This document shows, one piece after another, positions 49,531 to 64,000 of a stretch of 64,000 nucleotides of DNA. The number at the start of each line of letters is the position of its first letter. Position 1 is the first letter of the stretch. This stretch comes from Zingiber officinale (taxonomy: Eukaryota > Streptophyta > Magnoliopsida > Zingiberales > Zingiberaceae), in assembly GCF_018446385.1 (NCBI RefSeq), contig NC_056001.1:7025600-7089599 (forward strand), written 5' to 3'. The notes beneath the pieces were generated by a model. The model was not told the origin of the DNA. It worked only from the letters and a program-made list of their open reading frames with translations, and did no database searches. A program made the translations under genes and the position numbers.

Positions 49531-51275
49531 TGTTAGGGTCGATTTGTAGCTAAAGAAGGGGGGAGAGGGGTGAATAGCTCATCACGCTTCGTTTGCTGGC
49601 TTTGGTGTTGTTGATTTGCAACGGAATGAACTTGAAACAAGACTCACAATACTAACATTAGGATTTACTTGATATCTACCTCAAGAAGAGGTGACTAATC
49701 CAAGGATCCATACATGACACGCTTTCCACTATGAAAAACACTTATTCTCGGTAACTACCGAAGGCGGAGAAGCCTTGTACAAACTCTCAATATAACAAGA
49801 AGAAAAAAAAGAAGCGAATACAAAGAAAATCTTACAAGATTTACACAAATAAAACCCTAGCTAGCTTCTTCTTCTTGTGTGAAATGCCTCTTGACCTTGA
49901 AAGTGCAGCAATACTTTGCTTCAACAAGCTTCAAGAACAGGCGAGATCATCTGAGAGAAGAATTGGAGAGATCTGGAATGAAGGAGGCTTGCCACAACTT
50001 TTTCTGTGCGCTTCCTTTGCAACGGTCATATTTCAATTGATTGACCAATCGATTGGGGAGGCTTGAATCGATCAGTTGATCTATTTAGAGTGTCTCTGTG
50101 CTCTGCTGTAAAGGACCTAAATTGATCGCCCAATCGATTCAGCCTTCATCGCGTTGCGCGAGAATTCTAGTCCCAATCGATCGACTGATCGATTGGCGGT
50201 GCCCAATCGATCGATTGGGGAAGTTTTTGTGCTCGCTATTTAGGCTCCCAATCTATCGGTCGATCGATTGGGCTTCTGTTTATCGTAGCACTCTCTCAAT
50301 CAATCAGCTAATTTATTGAGCTTCGGTTCAATCGATCGGTTGATCGATTGACCATCCTTGACTTGTTTAACTCAAGCTCAAGGGTTCCCAAATCCAATAT
50401 CCGGTCAAACATGACCTGTTGGAACTCCTCATGCTTAGCATCTGGTCAACCTTGGCCTGTTGGGATTTCTTCACCAAGTGTTCGATTAATCCTTTGACTC
50501 ACTTGGACTTTTCTCCTCGTACCAAGTAACCGGCCAACCTTGACATACTTGGACTTACCGTCTCGTGTCAAGTGTCCGGTCCTCCATGACCTACTTGGAT
50601 TTTCTTCCACCAGATGTCCGGTCATCCTTGACCCATCTGGATTTCCTTGTGTCAAGTATCCGGTCACACATTTGACCTACTTGGACTCCCCAACACCAGG
50701 TGTTCGATCAACCTTAACCCATTTGGATTCCCATGTGTCTGGTTTCACTTACCAGTTCTTTCCATCTACCTAGCTTCACTCATTAGGACTTTCCATTTGC
50801 CTGGCTTCACTCATCAGGATTTTCACCTGACTTCACCCACTAGGATTTTTCCACTGCCTGACTTCACTTACCATGACTTTCACCTGCCTAGCTTCACTCA
50901 CTAGGCCTTTCACTTAGCTTCATTCACCAGGATTTTCCAACTGCCTAGCTCCACTCACTAGGTCTTTCACCTGACTTCACTCACCAAGATTTTCAACTCC
51001 ATGGCTTCACTCACCACGACTTTCCCTTGCCTAACCTCCAGTTAGGACTTTCCCAGCCAAGTATCTAGTCAACTTTAACCCACTTGACTCTTTTTCACAT
51101 CAAACTGGTTAAACCTTGACCAGAGGAGAATTGCACAACAATATCCCTAATCAGATGATTGCTCCTGCAATCTCCATATATTGTCAAATATCGAAATCAA
51201 ATCAAGACTCAAACTTGAGCCAACTCAAGTTTAGTCAACATGGTCAACCTTGACCCAGATGATATTGCACCAACA
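49531..51275 (-). mobile_element. Nested solo LTR, Copia/SIRE-like, 1.75 kb
   Basis: Starts TGTTAGGGTC and ends GCACCAACA, flanked by the 5-bp TSD CCAAC (49526-49530 and 51276-51280). It is inserted just after the 5' LTR of the gypsy element. Orientation is minus: the opposite strand reads TGTTGGTGCAATATC at its start and gctattcacccctctccccc near its end. It contains a palindrome-rich tract (about 50030-50350) and two arrays of hairpin-forming repeats (about 50390-50745 and 50760-51060). Confidence 0.88.
50390..50745 (-). repeat. Array of ~8 diverged ~43-bp hairpin-forming repeats in the solo LTR
   Basis: Units have the plan stem - TCCGGTCA-like - TGACC - stem - GGAYTTCYT. Stem pairs seen: CCAAGTG (50474) with CACTTGG (50500); CCAAGTA (50522) with TACTTGG (50546); CCAGATG (50610) with CATCTGG (50634). 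Arms differ between units but still pair. Confidence 0.8.
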
Positions 51276-51553
51276 CCAACGATATCTCAACCGACCTTCG
51301 TCTGACTCAGATTCTGGACAGGATCAATTTAGCGTCGTCTGTAGGAATTTTCTTCACCTATTCTAGAACATGATAATGGAGGAGATCGGAAGAATCAACG
51401 TCACCATCACAGTAGGAGACTACGAGCTGTTCAAGGAGGCCAAGAGACGAGTGACTTCCAAAAAACACACTACTGCTTCACACCCATACAAGATGCCTAT
51501 AATTTCCAAGGACCCGACCCATGTCTCGGACAGGGGTCTAAAAGAAAACAACC

Positions 51554-51730
51554 CAAGGATTTCTCTCATGTCTTCTATCGCAAGTCCTACCCAAACTACT
51601 ATAACAAGGGCCAGGACTATTATAATAAGAGAGAGCAACCGCAAGGATTTCCCTCATGTCTTCTATCGCAAGCCCTACCCAAACTACTATAACAAGGGCC
51701 AGGACTATTATAATAAGAGAGAGCAACCGC
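51554..51730 (+). repeat. Two-copy 88-bp tandem duplication in the gypsy gag region
   Basis: caaggatttctctcatgtct at 51554 and caaggatttccctcatgtct at 51642 start two nearly identical copies encoding a Tyr/Asn/Lys-rich stretch. Confidence 0.92.
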
Positions 51731-53444
51731 AAGCTTCCATCGCTGAGAGTTACCCACCCAGAGATACGAAGAAGGGGAAGACCATAATCCTCCGGGAAGA
51801 ATCGAAGGAGATGCTCGAAGAGCAGGTGCTATTCTCTCTAAGAATACTCAAGGAAAAGCTACCAAAGGGGTACAAGCCCCAGCTATTGGAGAATATGATG
51901 ATAGCAAAGATTCAGAAGATCATCTCCGAAAATTTAGAAACGCTGCGTTGCTACACAAATACAACGACGTCATCAAGTGTCGAGTGTTCTTAAACACCCT
52001 GTCTGACTCGGTGCAAAAATGGTTCGATGGATTGCCGAACAGATCCATCACTTGTTTTCGAGACTTCAAGACCGTTTTCCTGCGTCATTTCGCAAGTAGC
52101 AAGAAGTATCAAAAGACATATCACTGTCTCTTAGTCCTCAAGTAAGATTCTGCACAACCCTTGAGGAGCTATATCAAACGCTTCAACCAGGTAGCCCAGA
52201 CGTCCCGTCCGCTACCTCAGAGATATTGATGAGTGCCTTTTCCCATGGTTTGGTGGAGGGGGAGTTCTTCCGAGCCCTCATCCGAGAGCCTGTGAAGAAT
52301 TTTGATGAGATGTTGGGGAAGGCAGCCAACTACATCACGTAGAAGAAGCCCAAACGACTAAACAGAAAGCAGACAAGGTGTCTGCTACTGCCAACAAGCC
52401 GGAGAACAGGCTGTCCCAACCTCCAGCTCGGCCTTTTCCCCGTTCTAAGGACGCTCAACTAGGATTTTTGCCCAGTTAGGAGTCTAGGATGGCTCAACAG
52501 GTAGAAGTTGTTCAAGCCACTAGACTCAGTCAGTCGGGGCCTCGCTATTACACTTACAACATGTCCCACACTCATTCCACTTGAGATTGCATCTAGTTCG
52601 CCCGTGACTCTCAGCGTGCAACTGAATTGGGTCTGCCTCTGCCTCTGCCTGAGATCGCGCCCAAGCTTTAGAGGCTGCCAGCCAACCAACCTACTGTAGC
52701 AGCTCAGTCAGGTAGATCCCTGTCCGAAAATACAGGTCAGGGAAACCAGCAGCCATGCTGGGGTAAGGAACAAATGGAATCTTTCGAGGAGAAGAATAGG
52801 GGAAATGTCGTCATTCGAGAGATCAGCATGATCTCTGGAGGATCCACTGATGGGACTCCTCCCAAGCTTGAAAATCTCATGAATGCAGCTTGGAGATATA
52901 TGCGGTAGGATGCAGCCGGAAACAAGGTGTAGGGCCCGTTATCTGTTTCGAGCCGCAAGACCTGGAGGGATTGGATCTCTCTCATGATGATACCCTAATA
53001 ATCAAAGCTATCATTTCCAACAGCTGGGTGGCTAGGGTTTTCGTTGACACCGGAAGCTTTATCAATGTACTGTTTAAGAACGCCATCAAGGGTATGCAGA
53101 TCGACGCTAGTGAGGTCCAGCTCATAGCCATTTCATTGTACGGGTTCGCTAGTAATGAAGTAAGACCAATGGACCAAATTAAGCTAGCCATATTTCTGGG
53201 TAGTAAGCCCCTGGTGAGGACCCAGAGGAGCACTTTCATAGTAATGGATTCTCCATCCTCCTACAATGTCATCTTGGGAAGATCTGCATTGCACGAGTTT
53301 AGAGCGACGATCTCTACCTTCTATCAGAAGATGAAACTTCCTATGGGCAACCAGGTCGGGGAAGTTAGGGGCGAACAACTGGTCTCCCACAGGTGTTACG
53401 TCGACATGGTGAAAATGGAGGCTTGGAAAGTTCAGAGAACCTAG

Positions 53445-56185: not shown

Positions 56186-57997
56186 TGTTAGCTAGAGCCC
56201 TAGAGCCAATCATTTGATGATTGTATTTTGGACTTGTTGTATCATATTCTATATAAATAAAGACATTTGATTTTTGGTTATTATACTTACTTGTATTGGT
56301 GCCAAATAAACTAAGTATAATAACGTCCTTGAGTAGATGATCCTCACCTATATCAATCGGTTAGTTGAACCGATAGTGAGATGATATAGGGAACACTACT
56401 CTTAATCATTCCTAGTCGAGTATTAACATTCAGGGACAATGTTAATGCAATAAGACTAGCATGTAGGTCAACTCGATGACTTGATCTCACAAGTCATGGA
56501 TATAGAGATATCAAGTTGACACATGAGTATACATTAGAGAATGTATACTGAATGACCCGCCATGAGAAAGTATCATGGATCGTTATATGAGTGTCATATA
56601 CTTTCTCATGTGGCTATTAGTATGACTATTAGTCCTTAGACCTGAAGTCACCATGGATCCCTACATAAGGAGTTATGTACTTTAGTTTCGTCAAACGTCA
56701 CCCGTAACTGGGTGGACTATAAAGGCGATTACTGGGTATGTAACGAATTATGCAGAGGGATGTGAGTGATGTAGATGGGATCTATCCCTCCTATATGACG
56801 GGAGAGACATCGATATTCTTGATAGAGTGAGACCACGAAGTGCATGGTTATGCCCAAATGAGTCAATATGAGATATTGAGCTCATTTGATTTAGTGAGTC
56901 TACTTGGAGTTCAAGATTTAGATTGATTAGAGGATGACACGGTCTATGCCTCACATTGATCAATCTAGATGTCTAGGATAGAAGGACACTTGTCATATAT
57001 TGTGAGGAGTCACAATTAGTAGTCACAAGGTGATGTTGGATCTCAACATTCCTGTAACTTGGGTAGTAATGATGTGTTGCTAGATACCGCTCATTACTTA
57101 TGCTTCTAAATGGGTTTAGGAGCATTGCCAACGTTACAAGAACCTATAGGGTCACACACAAAGGACAATTAGATGGAGATTAGGTTCATTTGATGAACCT
57201 AAAGGATTAGGTTCATTTGATGAACCAAATTGGATTAAGAGTAATCCAAGGTAGGCTAATTGAGTTGGACTCAATTTGGTTCATGTGTTAAGTGAGTCTA
57301 ATTTGGACTTAAACTTATTTAATTAATTTAATTCAATGAATAGAGATTCATTAAATTAAAATTGACTTGAACCAATGGTTAGATTAGATCAACCAAGGGA
57401 GAGAAGTGGTTAAGTTTGACTTGACATAAGTAGGAAGATGAAGAGTCAAGTTTTGACTTGACTTTGACTTGACCAATGCCACATCATCAAGGCTTCTTCA
57501 TTTGGTCAAGTTTGACTTGACCAAATGCCACCTCATGGGAGTTACCAAGAGTGGTGACTCTTGATATTCCATGGGAGTTACAAGCCAAAAATGTGGCCGA
57601 CCACTTTTATTCATGAAAAGGAGTTTCATTTTTCATATATAACTCCATCTTCTTCTTCCTTGGTTCTCTTCTCTCCCTCTCCTCCTCCACTACTGATCTC
57701 TAAGGTTGCTAGCACATCCTTAGAGGTTTTTCTCCATCTCTTGCTTGTGTGGATACACATAGAGAAGTGTCTACTTTGACACTTTCGAGATCCGGCGAAC
57801 CGAGGACGAGCGGGATACGCGAAGGGCTTCGCTTCAAAGGTATAAAATGTTTTTTCTTTGTAGATCTACTGTAGATCATAGTTTGAAACTCGTACTCGTA
57901 TTTTTGAAAGTTTTCTTCGCACGAGATCCAGTGGCATGGGTGATTCGGGGTTTTCGCGACGCGAAAAAGCGGTTTTCGCGGCCCGAAAAACCCAACA
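56186..57997 (+). mobile_element. Solo LTR (Copia-like), 1.8 kb, nested in the left LTR of the antisense element
   Basis: Starts TGTTAGCTAGAGCC and ends AAAACCCAACA, flanked by the 5-bp TSD AATTA (56181-56185 and 57998-58002). A plus-strand TATA-like catatataact lies near 57636, followed by a pyrimidine-rich leader. It contains short palindromic direct repeats (ggttcatttgatgaacc at about 57180 and 57209). Confidence 0.9.
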
Positions 57998-58507
57998 AAT
58001 TAGACTTAAGAAAGCGCTTTGTCGGAATAGCCTCGCGGCGTCGCAGGAGCGTAGAGCAGTAGAGCAAGCAGTAGATTCTCAATTCTGAATTAAAGCTCCC
58101 CTCTGACCCTCCTTTTATATGAGGCTCGGGGCGCCCCGGATCCCTTCCGGGCGCCCTGGTGGGACGTGGCAGGTCCAACCAACAAGCTCCACGTGGAGAC
58201 GCGCGAGTTTGGATGAAATTTGCCTCCCGGGCGCATGGACCCTGTTTTCCCGCAGAATCCGTCCTGCAAAACAAACGTTAGTCCGGAGGCAAATAATAAG
58301 TATGCCCTGCAAAATAGTTTGTTAGCACAGTTATATAGATAAGCAAAAAAGAGTATGACTTAGATTCCGTCTTTCCGAGACCGGAATCTAGTCACGATCT
58401 CAACTTAGATATCCAAAATGGATCTAAGCCAGATCGACGCCTAATGTTCCCTTCCCGGGAACGCGTCCTCACAGTCACTCCCCTCCAGTGACTTACCTTA
58501 CTTACCT

Positions 58508-58753
58508 GCCAGACGTCCGGTCAACCTTTCGACCCGTCTGGACTTCTTGCCAAGCGTCCGGTCAGCCCGTCGACCCGCTTGGACTTCTCGCCAGCTATCC
58601 GGTCAGCCCGTCGACCTAGCTGGACTTCTCGCCAGCTATCCAGTCAGCCCGTCGACCTAGCTGGACTTCTCGCCAAGCGTCCGGTCAGCCCGTCGACCCG
58701 CTTGGACTTCTCGCCAAGTGTCCGGTCAGCCCGTCGACCCGCTTGGACTTTGT
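58508..58753 (-). repeat. Array of six 41-bp hairpin-forming repeats in the Copia-like LTR
   Basis: Six back-to-back units of exactly 41 bp. Each has a 7-bp stem enclosing TCCGGTCAGCCCGTCGAC-type loops. Stem pairs by unit: CCAGACG/CGTCTGG; CCAAGCG/CGCTTGG; CCAGCTA/TAGCTGG (twice); CCAAGCG/CGCTTGG; CCAAGTG/CGCTTGG. Confidence 0.95.
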
Positions 58754-58875
58754 CTGCACACTCGGTCAGAGTGTTAGATCACAACAAACCTAACTTAACC
58801 TGATTTGTCATTCATCAAAACCTGAGTTAAACCGTTAGTGCTAACCGCACCAACAATCTTCCCCTTTTTGATGGA

Positions 58876-60179
58876 ATGACAACCTGGTTAAGTTAGTAAA
58901 AAATATGCGAAAAAGAGTTTAAACATTTTGTTCTAGTATGAGGTTTAAGTTAGTTTTTAATTTAATTTTATTTTTCTAACTTAACCACCTATCCCTCCCC
59001 CTTTGACATTCATCAAATAAGGAAGACAAATTAACCATTCAACAATACAGAATGCATAAAAAACTGTAGGAAATTTAGGTTAACTTGGGGGAGTAATTTA
59101 GCTTTCGTTTCTTAACTTTTGTAAAATAACTAAGTTTTGAAAATAGCTAATTTAGTAACATAACTTAGTATTTAGTACATTTTGAGTAATTTTGAAAGAT
59201 AATTTTTGCAAAATAAATTGACTTTGCAAAACTTAAGAAAGAGAATTTTAAGATCAAATTTTCAAAGTAAGTTTCAACTTTAAAAACACTTTTCAAACAT
59301 GTGTTTTTAAAATCAAAATTTCAAGGTTTAGATTTTCAAAATGCGTTTCAAGTTTGAAACACTTTTCAACCATGAGTTTTCAAAAACAAAGTTTCAAGAC
59401 TGAGTTTGAATAAATTTACTTTTCAAGACTGAGTTTGCAAAGGATTCAATTTTCCCTTAATTTAATTTCTCCCCCTTAAGTTAATACTAAGGTTTGGTTG
59501 TGTTAAATTTCAAAGCCCTAACACATTTGTCTAATTTAGTAACACTTATATTATTATCTCTGTATCCTTGGTATAACTATTTATTTGAATTTGATTAATC
59601 AATTATTAATTAATTTTAGATTCAGGCGCTTAACTTTAGTTTAAGGTTAAATAAGATAAGATTTTATTAATTCAATAACAGTTAAGCATTATCAATAATT
59701 TATTGATTAGTTTTTACTTGATTTAATAATTTAATACTTAGTGAAATAATTTAAATTTCATATTACTTGATTGAGTTGGTCAATGAAAGTGTTAGTTATA
59801 ATAATAATTATTATTTTTATTTATTTATTTAATTTTTTTAAAGGGATTTCTAAAACAGCATTTAAAAAGATTTTAAAATGATTTTGTTTTATGTCAATTA
59901 ACATACGTTTGATTCAGTTTTGATTTTAGATTTAAATTAATATTAGTGGTTAATTTAAGTTTAAGTTTAATTTTAAGTTTAAGTTAAAATTTTTAATTTT
60001 AATTGTAATTTCAATATTAAGTTTTAATTTAAGATTTAATTTTCAGTTAAGTTAAATTAAAAAATAATTTTAAGGTTAAAATGATATTTATGATTAAAAA
60101 TGAGTTTAAAGTCAAAATAATAATTTTTAAAGTGAAAATAATCTATAGAAATTTATTATTATTATTACTATCTTTTTAA
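58876..60179. other. Interior of the antisense Copia-like element, AT-rich non-coding
   Basis: Highly AT-rich, with recurring stretches such as aagtttcaa and ttaagtttaag. No open frame of note. It grades into the minisatellite that follows. Confidence 0.6.
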
Positions 60180-61700
60180 GATAACAGAATTTTATTATAG
60201 TGAAAAAATAAGAAGAATTTTTCAAAATGATACATAATTTTTAAAATAGTTTTAAAACGATTTTTAAAATAGTTTTTTTAAAATAATTTTTAAAAGTTTT
60301 TAAAATAATTTTTGAAATAATTTTTAACTTAAAATAATTTTAAAAATATTTTTAAGTTAATTAAAATAATTTTTAAAAGAGTTTTTAAATAATTTTTTAA
60401 ATGAATTTTTAAAATAATTTTTAAATGAGTTTTTAAAATAATTTTTTAAAAGAGTTTTTAAATAATTTTTTAAATGAAATTTTTTTTTTAAAAGAATTTT
60501 AAAATAGTTTTTAAAGAATTTTTAAAATAGTTTTTAAAGAATTTTTAAAATAATTTTTCAAGAATTTTTAAAATAAATTTTCAAGAATTTTTAAAAATAT
60601 TAAAATAGTTTTACAAGAATTTTTAAAATAGTTTTTTAAAGAATTTTTAAAATAGTTTTTAAAGAATTTTTTAAATAATTTTTAAAGAATTTTTAAAATA
60701 GTTTTTAAAGAATTTTTAAAATAATTTTTCAAGAATTTTTAAATTAGCTTTTAAAGAATTTTCAAAATAGTTTTTAAAGAATTTTTTAAATAGATTTTAA
60801 AGAATTTTTAAATTAATTTTTAAAGAATTTAAAATAGTTTTTAAATAATTTTTAAAATAATTTTTCAAGAATTTTTAAAATAATTTTTCAAGAATTTTTA
60901 AAATAGATTTTAAAGAATTTTCAAAATAGTTTTTAAAGAATTTTTGAATTGGTTTTTAAAGAATTTTTAAAATAGTTTTTAAAGAATTTTTAAAATAGTT
61001 TTTAAAGAATTTTTAAAATAGTTTTTAAAGAATTTTTAAAATAGTTTTGTAAAGAATTTTTAAAATAATTTTTCAAGAATGTTTAAAATAGTTTTTAAAG
61101 AATTTTCAAAATAGTTTTTAAAGAATTTAAAATAGTTTTTAAAATAATTTTTAAAGAATTTTTAAAATAGTTTTTTAAGAATTTTTAAAATTGTTTTTAA
61201 AGAATTTTTAAAATAGTTTTTAAAAGAATTTTTAAAATAATTTTTCAAGAATTTTTAAAATAATTTTTAAAATGATTTTTTTTAAAAGGATTTTTAAAAT
61301 AAATTTTTAAAAGAATTTTTAAAATAAGTTTTAAAAGTTTTTAAAATAATTTTTTAAAAGAATTTTTTAAAATGATTTTTTAAAAGTTTTTTTTAAAAGA
61401 ATTTTTTAAAAGAATTTTTAAAATGATTTTTAAAAGTTTTTTTGAAAATAAATTTTAAAAGAATTTTTAAGTTAAAAAAAATTAAGTTTAATTTTTAAAA
61501 TAAATTTTAAAGTTAAAAAAATTAAGTTTAATTTTTAAAATAAATTTTTAAGTTAAAAAAAATTATGTTTAATTTTTAAAAAATATTTAAGTTTAATTTT
61601 TAAAATAAAATTTTAAGTTAAAGAAAATTTAAGTTTAATTTTTAAAATAGATTTTTAAGTTAAAAAAAATTAATTTTAATTTAATTTAATTTAATTTTAA
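60180..61700. repeat. AT-only minisatellite, ~23-bp unit, ~1.5 kb
   Basis: Dozens of imperfect copies of gaatttttaaaatagtttttaaa. The array is densest at about 60490-61260 and decays at both ends into (TTTTAAAA)-like and gttaaaaaaaattaagttta-type variants. It contains almost no C and G only at fixed positions of the unit. Confidence 0.92.
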
Positions 61701-62328
61701 TTTAATAGTCATCTCACCCGATCTATGTTGTCAATCAGGGAATCCTATAATTTTGTGAGATGAATTAAGTTCAACTTTTAGATTTGTTTTTAACTTGTGT
61801 TATATTTAGGTTTAGCTTTGGGTTCAACAAATAGGCATTCTCTGGATAAACTTCTGGGCTATGGTGAGTCACTCGGACATCATTAAAGTAACCATGTCTT
61901 CAAGGTTTTCCAAATAGTCCTATCCACTGGACTTAGTACAAAATCGTGGTCTAACTGGTTAGGATTCATTAAGGGTAGCTTCGGTCAGTTTCACTTAGCC
62001 AGATGCACCAGGTCGAAGTCATATCTTCCTAGACATGCATAAACTAAGCTTCCCTAACATACTATCATCCAAAACTTTACCAGTACCATTTTTCAAGTTA
62101 AACTTGAACCCTCTTTAACTAGTCCTAATTATCCTGTCGGGTAGGTTGGTTGGGGTTACCCTTTTCGGGTAGGTTGGTTAGGGTTACCCTGTCGGGTAGA
62201 TTAGTTTTGGAGATGCCAGCTATTCTGGAGCCTCCCCCTGAATTATTGGTCATTAATTTAGTTTTTTGTTCTGGGTTTATTATAGTTAAGTTTTGGTTAA
62301 AATTTAATGTTTAATTTGTAATTTAGAT
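61701..62328. other. Interior of the antisense Copia-like element, non-coding mid part
   Basis: Normal base composition with a short tandem motif (gtcgggtaggttggttrgggttaccct-like, three copies at about 62137-62205). No open frame recognised. Confidence 0.55.
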
Positions 62329-63414
62329 TCAAGTTTTTAATTTTGAATTAATTAAATTAGTCAAATTATCTTTCTTCAAGAGAATGTATTTAATATTTAA
62401 ATTTTCTTTCAATTTCACTTTTATTAGGTTAATTGAATTATCTTTCTTTAATAGCTTATTTTTAAAGTTTAAGTTTTTATTCATTTTTAAATTTGAATTA
62501 ATTAAATTATTTGAATTATATTTCCTTAAAGGTTTATCTTTTGACCTTTTATTAATTGTTAATTTTGAATTTTTCAGATTATCTTTATTTAATATGTTAT
62601 TTTTAATATTTAATTTTAATTTTGTTAAATTTAGTTTTGATTTTATCAAAGTGTTTGATTTTATTCTTATATTTTCTTTATTTTTTAAGTTGATATAATT
62701 AGTGGAATTTATTAGATTATTCTTATCATTAAAATTTAATTTTTTATTAATTAAATTATCTTGGGTTTGGATAGGATTTTCTAGATTAATATTGTCTAGA
62801 TTATTAAATAATTTATTAATTTTATCTAGATCAATATTGACCTTGTCATCTCTATCATTTGAGTTTTCAGATTTGTTTAGGTTCAAGTTTGAATTTTTTA
62901 AATTAATTGGATTTATTTTATCAGATAATATCCTAGGGGTATTTTTGTAATTATTGTCAACTACATTATTTTCACATATATTTTCAGAAATAACCAGATC
63001 AATGCTCATATTTTTTAAACTACTATTAGCAGGGGTATTTTGGTAAATATCACTAACATTGAGCGCAACCCCTAATTCAGTAGGCTTTTCGATTGGATCT
63101 AACCCGAGTTCGGATTCGATTTTTACTTGATCCTCGAGTTCCATCGGCTCCTCGTGAAGTTTGATCAATTGGGTCCAAAGCTCATGTGCATCTTTGTACT
63201 TTTTTACTCTGCATAAAACATTGTTAGGTAAAACATTACAAATGATTTTACTTACATTTGTGTTTAGTTCTGAGTTCTGAGAAGGTTTTCTCAATATCAG
63301 CCAATAATCAAAGTTTACGCTTCCTAAGAAGCATTCCATTAATCGTTTCCAATAGTTGAAATCTTGATCGTATGGTGGTGGTTCGTGGGGGTTCCGTCCT
63401 TCTTGAAGAGTCAT
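62329..63414 (-). mobile_element. Gag-like frame of the antisense Copia-like element with Asn/Lys-rich tail
   Basis: From the ATG at 63414 the minus strand encodes MTLQEGRNPHEPPPYDQDFN, then a Copia gag (UBN2-like) core with YWKRLMECFLGSVNFDYWLI and KYKDAHELWTQLIKLHEEP over about the first 110 residues. The following 250 residues are low complexity, dominated by Asn, Lys, Leu and Ile. No zinc knuckle is seen. The frame is open through this stretch and lies next to the primer-binding site, as expected for gag. Confidence 0.75.
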
Positions 63415-64000
63415 TATTCTTGCACACAGAGAAACAGAAAAAAAAAATCCCAAGACTTGGTCTTGGATTAGCAGTGCTGAAAAAAAATAATATTTCACTA
63501 TTTTAAAAAAAAGTAATAAAATATTATTAAAATATTAATAAAAATTTAATAAAATATTTTTAATCAATATTATTTCAAAATTTTGAAAATGTAATATTTT
63601 GTCAAAACTAACCAATGGTGAAGAGATGGCGATGTATTTTTCAAAAATAGTTTTGGAGGGGAAAAAAAATGAAAGACGTAAGGTTTTATTTTAAAGACGA
63701 ACGATATCTAATTTTTTTTAAAAAAACATCCCCCTTTGCTTGATTGGTGGTTGCACCAAATCAGAGCGGTACCTGCTCTGATATCACTTGTTGGATCGTG
63801 AAACGTCGATAGAGGGGGGGGGTGAATATCGATTTGAAAAACAACGTTGAAAAGAGTTAAGCGTAGCGGAATTTAAAAGAACAGACACAGTAATTTTACT
63901 TCGTTCGGAGCCTATGACGACTCCTACTCGAAGGCCCGTACTCCGTGAGTACTTTCGTTGGGCAATCACTATCAATTCGAATGACGATTACAAAATAATT

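Follow-up and report, generated by a model that had tools for sequence, protein, structure and literature searches.

The LTRs of Sireviruses contain RM boxes, which are repeated palindromic, CpG-rich motifs located upstream of the TATA box, some of them with CGGTC..GACCG cores (Bousios et al. 2010, PMC2829016). There, the primer binding site (PBS) is given as TATCAGAGC following CA/ATTGG, with T replaced by G in six elements, the terminal polypurine tract (PPT) octamer AGGGGGAG is placed 10 bp before the 3' LTR, and box I of the tobacco Tnt1 LTR is described as symmetric (PMC2829016). The palindromes of maize Sireviruses, reported in a 2016 study, are clustered in the cis-regulatory LTR and combine strong predicted structure with high variability, all of which is shared by the array described here; the maize motif, CACCGGACNNNGTCCGGTG, is unlike that of the array, and mapping of small RNAs was reported for maize (PMC10760457, PMC5311732). 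The first-pass annotation of the array, made from the sequence alone, knew of no named LTR feature of this kind, a statement overtaken by the palindromic Sirevirus motifs upstream of the TATA box published in 2010 (PMC2829016).

The array is found in a window of 64,000 nucleotides from Zingiber officinale, the whole stretch of DNA analysed, and belongs to the 3' LTR of an element that is read in sense on the minus strand (Table 1). The earlier assignment to a Copia-type LTR is supported. The window copy has two LTRs, a PPT and a PBS. The outer 5-bp flanks, GGACG and GGATG, form a target-site duplication with one difference. The terminal PPT, AGGGGAAG, agrees with the published octamer AGGGGGAG at 7 of 8 bases and stands at the right distance from the 3' LTR; it is followed by AT and then TGTTGG (58857-58850, minus strand), which is the AT/TG attachment site of Sireviruses. 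At the other end, the sequence reads CA/AGTGA and then TATCAGAGC, so that the PBS, also a Sirevirus hallmark, is exact and the intervening bases contain one mismatch. A C run (ATTCACCCCCC...) was recognized by eye within 40 bases of the end in each LTR. The end motifs resemble the published Sirevirus motifs, with deviations (PMC2829016). In the windows that cover the LTR's first 500 bp, the observed/expected CpG ratio is 1.03-1.13 and the GC content 0.51-0.65, a CpG level that agrees with reports of CpG islands in such clusters (PMC2829016). The array covers LTR positions 110-347, in U3, starting about 110 bp past the LTR start, and besides the tabulated TATA box there is another TATA-like match with its start at 58337. 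The 5' LTR has its own six-unit array, with a type order identical to that of the 3' LTR array.

No pol was found in the internal region of the window copy, which looks non-autonomous from its sequence. The GC content is only 6-12% at 60000-61599, an internal stretch built of short repeats. For the 401-codon frame, Pfam returned nothing at E<=1; its N-terminal part appears to resemble Copia gag, and the remainder is rich in Asn and Lys. In two other copies (L090 and L091), a stretch of 3 kb ahead of the 3' LTR holds no frame longer than 70 codons and is AT-rich, down to 7% GC. The insert of about 1.8 kb inside the 3' LTR is perhaps a solo LTR or a small LTR element.

Table 1. Positions of the array, of the features of its host element and of a second array in the window
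Feature	Position	Strand	Remarks
Palindrome array, six 41-bp units	58509-58746	minus	33-bp palindrome and 8-bp spacer per unit
3' LTR	58855 down to 55928	minus	aligns to partner LTR at 93.6-97.8% in three pieces; ends TGTTGG...CCAACA
TG...CA insert, ~1.8 kb, inside 3' LTR	56186-57997		AATTA on both sides
TATA box CATATAAAAGG	58114-58119	minus	~390 bp downstream of array on the sense strand
Terminal polypurine tract AGGGGAAG	58858-58865	minus	followed by AT, then LTR start TG
Inverted repeat at PPT/3' LTR junction	58790-58820 / 58866-58896		74% complementary; Sirevirus hallmark
Upstream polypurine octamers AGGGGGAG	58995-59002, 59469-59476, 62232-62239	minus	exact; Sirevirus hallmark
Internal region	58856-63788	minus	largely AT-rich; one 401-codon open frame
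Open frame, 401 codons	62332-63534	minus (sense)	just inside 5' LTR
Primer binding site TATCAGAGC	63775-63783	minus	just inside 5' LTR
5' LTR, part inside window	63789-64000	minus	ends CCAACA; remainder beyond window end (locus L003)
Second array with palindromes of this type, diverged	50393-50730	+ as read	arms CCAAGTG, CCAAGTA, CCAGATG; in another repeat

When 58490-58770 is scanned for palindromes (arms of 7 bp, loop of 8-24, at most one mismatch), the units start at 58509, 58550, 58591, 58632, 58673 and 58714. The arms pair at 7 of 7 positions in five units and at 6 of 7 in the sixth, whereas 100 base-composition shuffles of the array region contain on average 0.18 perfect palindromes (maximum 2) and 2.55 palindromes with at most one mismatch (maximum 5). 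The same array is called by TRF at 58514-58750, with a period of 41, 5.8 copies and 88% matches. Along the + strand the arm types, named after their four variable positions, run GACG, AGCG, GCTA, GCTA, AGCG and AGCG, the last one with one mismatch. The six-unit layout of the first-pass annotation holds, apart from full pairing in the sixth unit, as do the three arm pairs that it listed (CCAGACG/CGTCTGG, CCAAGCG/CGCTTGG and CCAGCTA/TAGCTGG) and its near-constant loop, the 19-nt loops varying little. It also had the odd unit keep its pairing through a G-U change, which would hold only in antisense RNA: the sixth unit, CCAAGTG/CGCTTGG, has a T-G pair on the + strand only and an A-C mismatch on the minus strand, which is the sense strand. 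CpG deamination would explain this mismatch. The six units represent three arm types, with a one-base change in one unit, and they are not six independent observations.

Five of the six units have a GGTC/GACC pair nested inside the loop, the unit at 58632 having AGTC instead, and in one predicted fold it is paired together with the arms in some units. CGGTC...GACC is followed by CG in the AGCG and GACG types and by TA in the GCTA types. Over the window, GGTCA...GACC gives 14 matches at 10 places, against 1.07 matches expected. GGTCA/TGACC is similar to a W-box, which makes WRKY proteins the first candidates among plant factors. The region of the second array (50380-51130) contains three perfect 7-bp palindromes, compared with a shuffled mean of 0.39 and maximum of 2, and eight with at most one mismatch, which is no excess over the shuffles (mean 5.49, maximum 9). 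Beside the second array lies a 31-bp tandem array (50744-51033), some units of which look by eye like CCTAG...CTAGG palindromes, and an 88-bp tandem duplication of 2.1 copies with 96% matches is found at 51549-51733.

As in RM boxes, the units are palindromic, CpG-rich and present in many copies, and they occupy the LTR's upper half, ahead of the TATA box; the RM-box cores CGGTCAGACCG, CGGTCGACCG and CGGTCTGACCG are close to the array core (PMC2829016). The dyad symmetry of the unit and its place in the LTR relative to the TATA box are those by which RM boxes are defined. The array differs from them in its 33-bp composite palindrome, its interrupted core, in which the CGG-CCG core is only partial, and its several matched 7-bp arm types. 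The distance to the LTR start also differs, and published RM boxes are nearer to the TATA box than the array is (Table 1; PMC2829016). RM boxes number at least eight copies per element and the LTR of the window copy has six, so we class the array as an RM-box-like variant, not as a plain member. None of the literature titles found concerned covarying arms in such arrays; what is new in detail is that a single array combines one constant core with several kinds of matched arm pair.

The 19-mer of the loop occurs 41,825 times (20,812 + 21,013) in the 3.1-Gb genome, its reversed control not at all, and 35,300 of the genomic sites with this loop have CCANNNN and NNNNTGG arms. Among 61 sampled arrays of at least three units, the PPT and LTR start were found upstream in 28 (24 of these at 116-121 bp) and the PBS downstream in 20, while 13 had neither and none had both, a split expected for a mixture of 3' LTRs, 5' LTRs and decayed, cut-off or solo copies. 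A TATA-like site follows within 700 bp downstream in 50 of the 61, at 357-452 bp in 48 of them. Array length and unit order vary between copies, with a sampled maximum of eight units. The unit sample is not random, being composed of loci similar to the window and of the first places on contig C1. Its 381 units were reduced to 368 by dropping the window unit at 50652 and 12 units from L060, an overlapping locus, and 358 of these, with at most five mismatches to the template, form the covariation set, which includes 34 units of unclear type and six mixed-arm units other than GACG/GACA. The ungapped scan misses or misreads units with insertions or deletions, and the genome-wide counts of arm types, mixed forms and pair-4 mutants all require the exact loop.

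In this larger alignment the arms covary strongly, as the first-pass annotation had anticipated. When the 528 column pairs from 193 distinct units are ordered by corrected mutual information, the four variable arm pairs take places 1, 2, 3 and 6, and 85.4% of the arm cells are Watson-Crick, against 13.7-24.8% when slid by 1-3 positions. The remaining seven pairs of the stem (1-3 and the inner ones) rank 20 to 233 of 528; they hardly vary and carry no weight in either direction. A sister family with a 17-nt loop, found at 2,306 places, has matched arms of other sequences (AGTG, GATG, GGTG, AGTA and AATG), one of which occurs only once among the 100 units listed. In these 100 of the 2,306 matches all four variable pairs match in 70 units, where 25.4 are expected and 2000 shuffles reach a maximum of 39. 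The covariation ranks and the matched arms of the sister family together argue that the units stayed palindromic through changes in their arms.

The assumption that the changes within this array are independent compensatory events is not supported. Exact matched pairs make up 264 of the 368 sampled units (AGCG 87, GCTA 107, GACG 47 and GACA 23), and the variation consists mostly of four inherited hairpin cassettes that are reshuffled whole. This corresponds in part to gene conversion between whole units, named at first pass as a process that would undo its case; there are 16 unit orders among the 34 arrays that have at least four units of clear type. Genome-wide, the two commonest matched types number 9,283 and 12,220, against 154 and 119 for the mixed forms, a mixed share of 1.25% (273 vs 21,503 matched) where random arm pairing would, by our own arithmetic, give about 49%. 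Mixed units are rare because whole units are exchanged; they may be removed by selection, or they may seldom be made, as exchange favours like units. Among the matches listed, a partner with the same unit was present 4-13 kb away for 56 and 48 of 100 matched units, for 8 and 2 of 100 mixed units and, counted by eye, for about 16 and 8 of 100 pair-4 single mutants. We rejected these partner-LTR rates as proof of selection, since the density of matched units is far higher and a recent variant should be present in only one of the two LTRs.

The genome-wide compensation test covers a single pair (pair 4 of the GCTA type), for which there are 12,220 intact units, 491 left-only, 311 right-only and 18 double mutants; independence predicts 12.5 doubles, a ratio of 1.44. 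In the 368-unit sample, stem co-mutations number 15 against 4.55 expected, and those of non-partner arm pairs 18 against 18.1; four of the 15 belong to L031 and L032 and probably have a common origin, and a misaligned unit of L022 is counted twice. All column pairs of the sample together give 462 co-mutations against 284.6, a ratio of 1.6 that we read as reflecting differences in copy age. On this basis compensation within inserted copies is not evident at pair 4 and was rejected as a reading: the sample looks positive, but the pair-4 ratio is close to that of all column pairs. The units of inserted copies decay, with no clear compensation at this pair, and the first-pass proposal of a fold maintained in existing copies is not supported. 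At this pair of the GCTA cassette (58591-58664 in the window; counted genome-wide) the left-arm mutation is 1.6 times as frequent as its mirror image in the right arm, an asymmetry that arises although the arm sequence is identical on both strands.

We infer that the array is probably a variant of the Sirevirus RM boxes, and that its units most likely serve as double-stranded DNA sites that regulate the promoter, the role, the factor and the selection all belonging to this inference. The array would act from U3, upstream of the TATA box, in an abundant Copia family of Sirevirus type whose examined copies appear to be without pol. Each unit is one 33-bp DNA palindrome, with a near-constant core and arms that come as a few matched pairs, and would be bound, for example, by a factor acting as a dimer or by a factor of which two copies face each other. 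Whole-unit exchange would make the arrays grow, shrink and reorder, and palindromy would be kept in transposing copies and lost in inserted ones. The Tnt1 LTR also has symmetric, repeated elements in U3, linked there to transcriptional activation; Tnt1 belongs to a different Copia lineage, and its elements differ in sequence and have few copies. Against this explanation, fixed factor sites would not obviously require arms that change as matched pairs.

The hairpins might instead fold in the RNA of the element (in the 3' U3, in antisense or in read-through transcripts), for an RNA function or as a template for small RNAs, which we consider unlikely. The array folds better than shuffled sequences on both strands, but the excess is weaker on the sense strand (z -2.59, 4 of 200 shuffles as good; z -2.79 when folded as DNA) than on the antisense strand (z -4.22, 0 of 200), and in its minimum-energy fold the sense strand pairs units with one another over a long stretch instead of forming six hairpins. 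If pairing in the sense RNA were kept, changes that leave a G-U pair should outnumber their mirror images. Over 11 pairs in the 368 units there are 123 A-C and 105 G-T mismatches on the + strand, a difference in the direction of sense G-U pairs that is driven by the inner pair 11-26 (29 vs 5), while the seven arm pairs give 73 changes that keep G-U in the sense RNA and 83 mirror images. The asymmetry at pair 4 (491 vs 311) also runs toward G-U kept in sense RNA, and the other pairs lean either way. Small RNAs of maize concentrate on Sirevirus palindromes (PMC5311732, PMC10760457), as an RNA template would have it; targeting by small RNAs would, however, be expected to select against the fold, and an array upstream of the TATA box would be carried by the main transcript only near its 3' end. 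A maintained RNA fold, the level at which the first-pass annotation had in part placed it, was rejected as the main reading for its position upstream of the TATA box, the lack of a consistent wobble bias over the arm pairs and the weaker folding excess of the sense strand. On the same three grounds double-stranded DNA sites are favoured, without proof; pair 4 and the inner pair 11-26 stand against them.

Matched arms could also arise by palindrome correction, in which a template switch within the hairpin, during reverse transcription or replication, copies one arm to the other without selection. Between the AGCG and GCTA types each of the four variable pairs is different and the loop is identical, a pattern that copying of an entire arm could leave, and the sample shows its co-mutation excess in the stem and none between non-partner arms. 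We regard this origin as quite unlikely: the 18 doubles against 12.5 expected make such correction rare in inserted copies at pair 4, and repeated correction might erase the unpaired TCC bulge and the loop, both of which persist. It could still operate in the transposing lineage. In another reading, which we hold to be very doubtful, arm complementarity would matter more than arm sequence: the constant core would be recognized and the arms would be variable clamps, perhaps forming cruciforms in DNA and renewed as matched pairs when one arm is copied during reverse transcription. If true, the array would be an LTR cis-element largely independent of the sequence of its arms. A neutral minisatellite, in which a palindromic unit that arose by chance was spread by unequal exchange with its arms as passengers, agrees with the variable length and order of the arrays and with the lack of clear compensation at pair 4 in inserted copies, but is highly improbable given that palindromy was kept through changes to five further arm sequences in the 100 sister-family units listed and that the array keeps its LTR position in most sampled copies.

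For annotation, these results are a warning that covariation in one tandem array is not independent evidence for a maintained fold. The tens of thousands of natural variants in this genome could separate a DNA site from an RNA fold and from template-switch correction. Within a single genome, and in two families, the palindromy of LTR arrays has been preserved through several changes of their arms.
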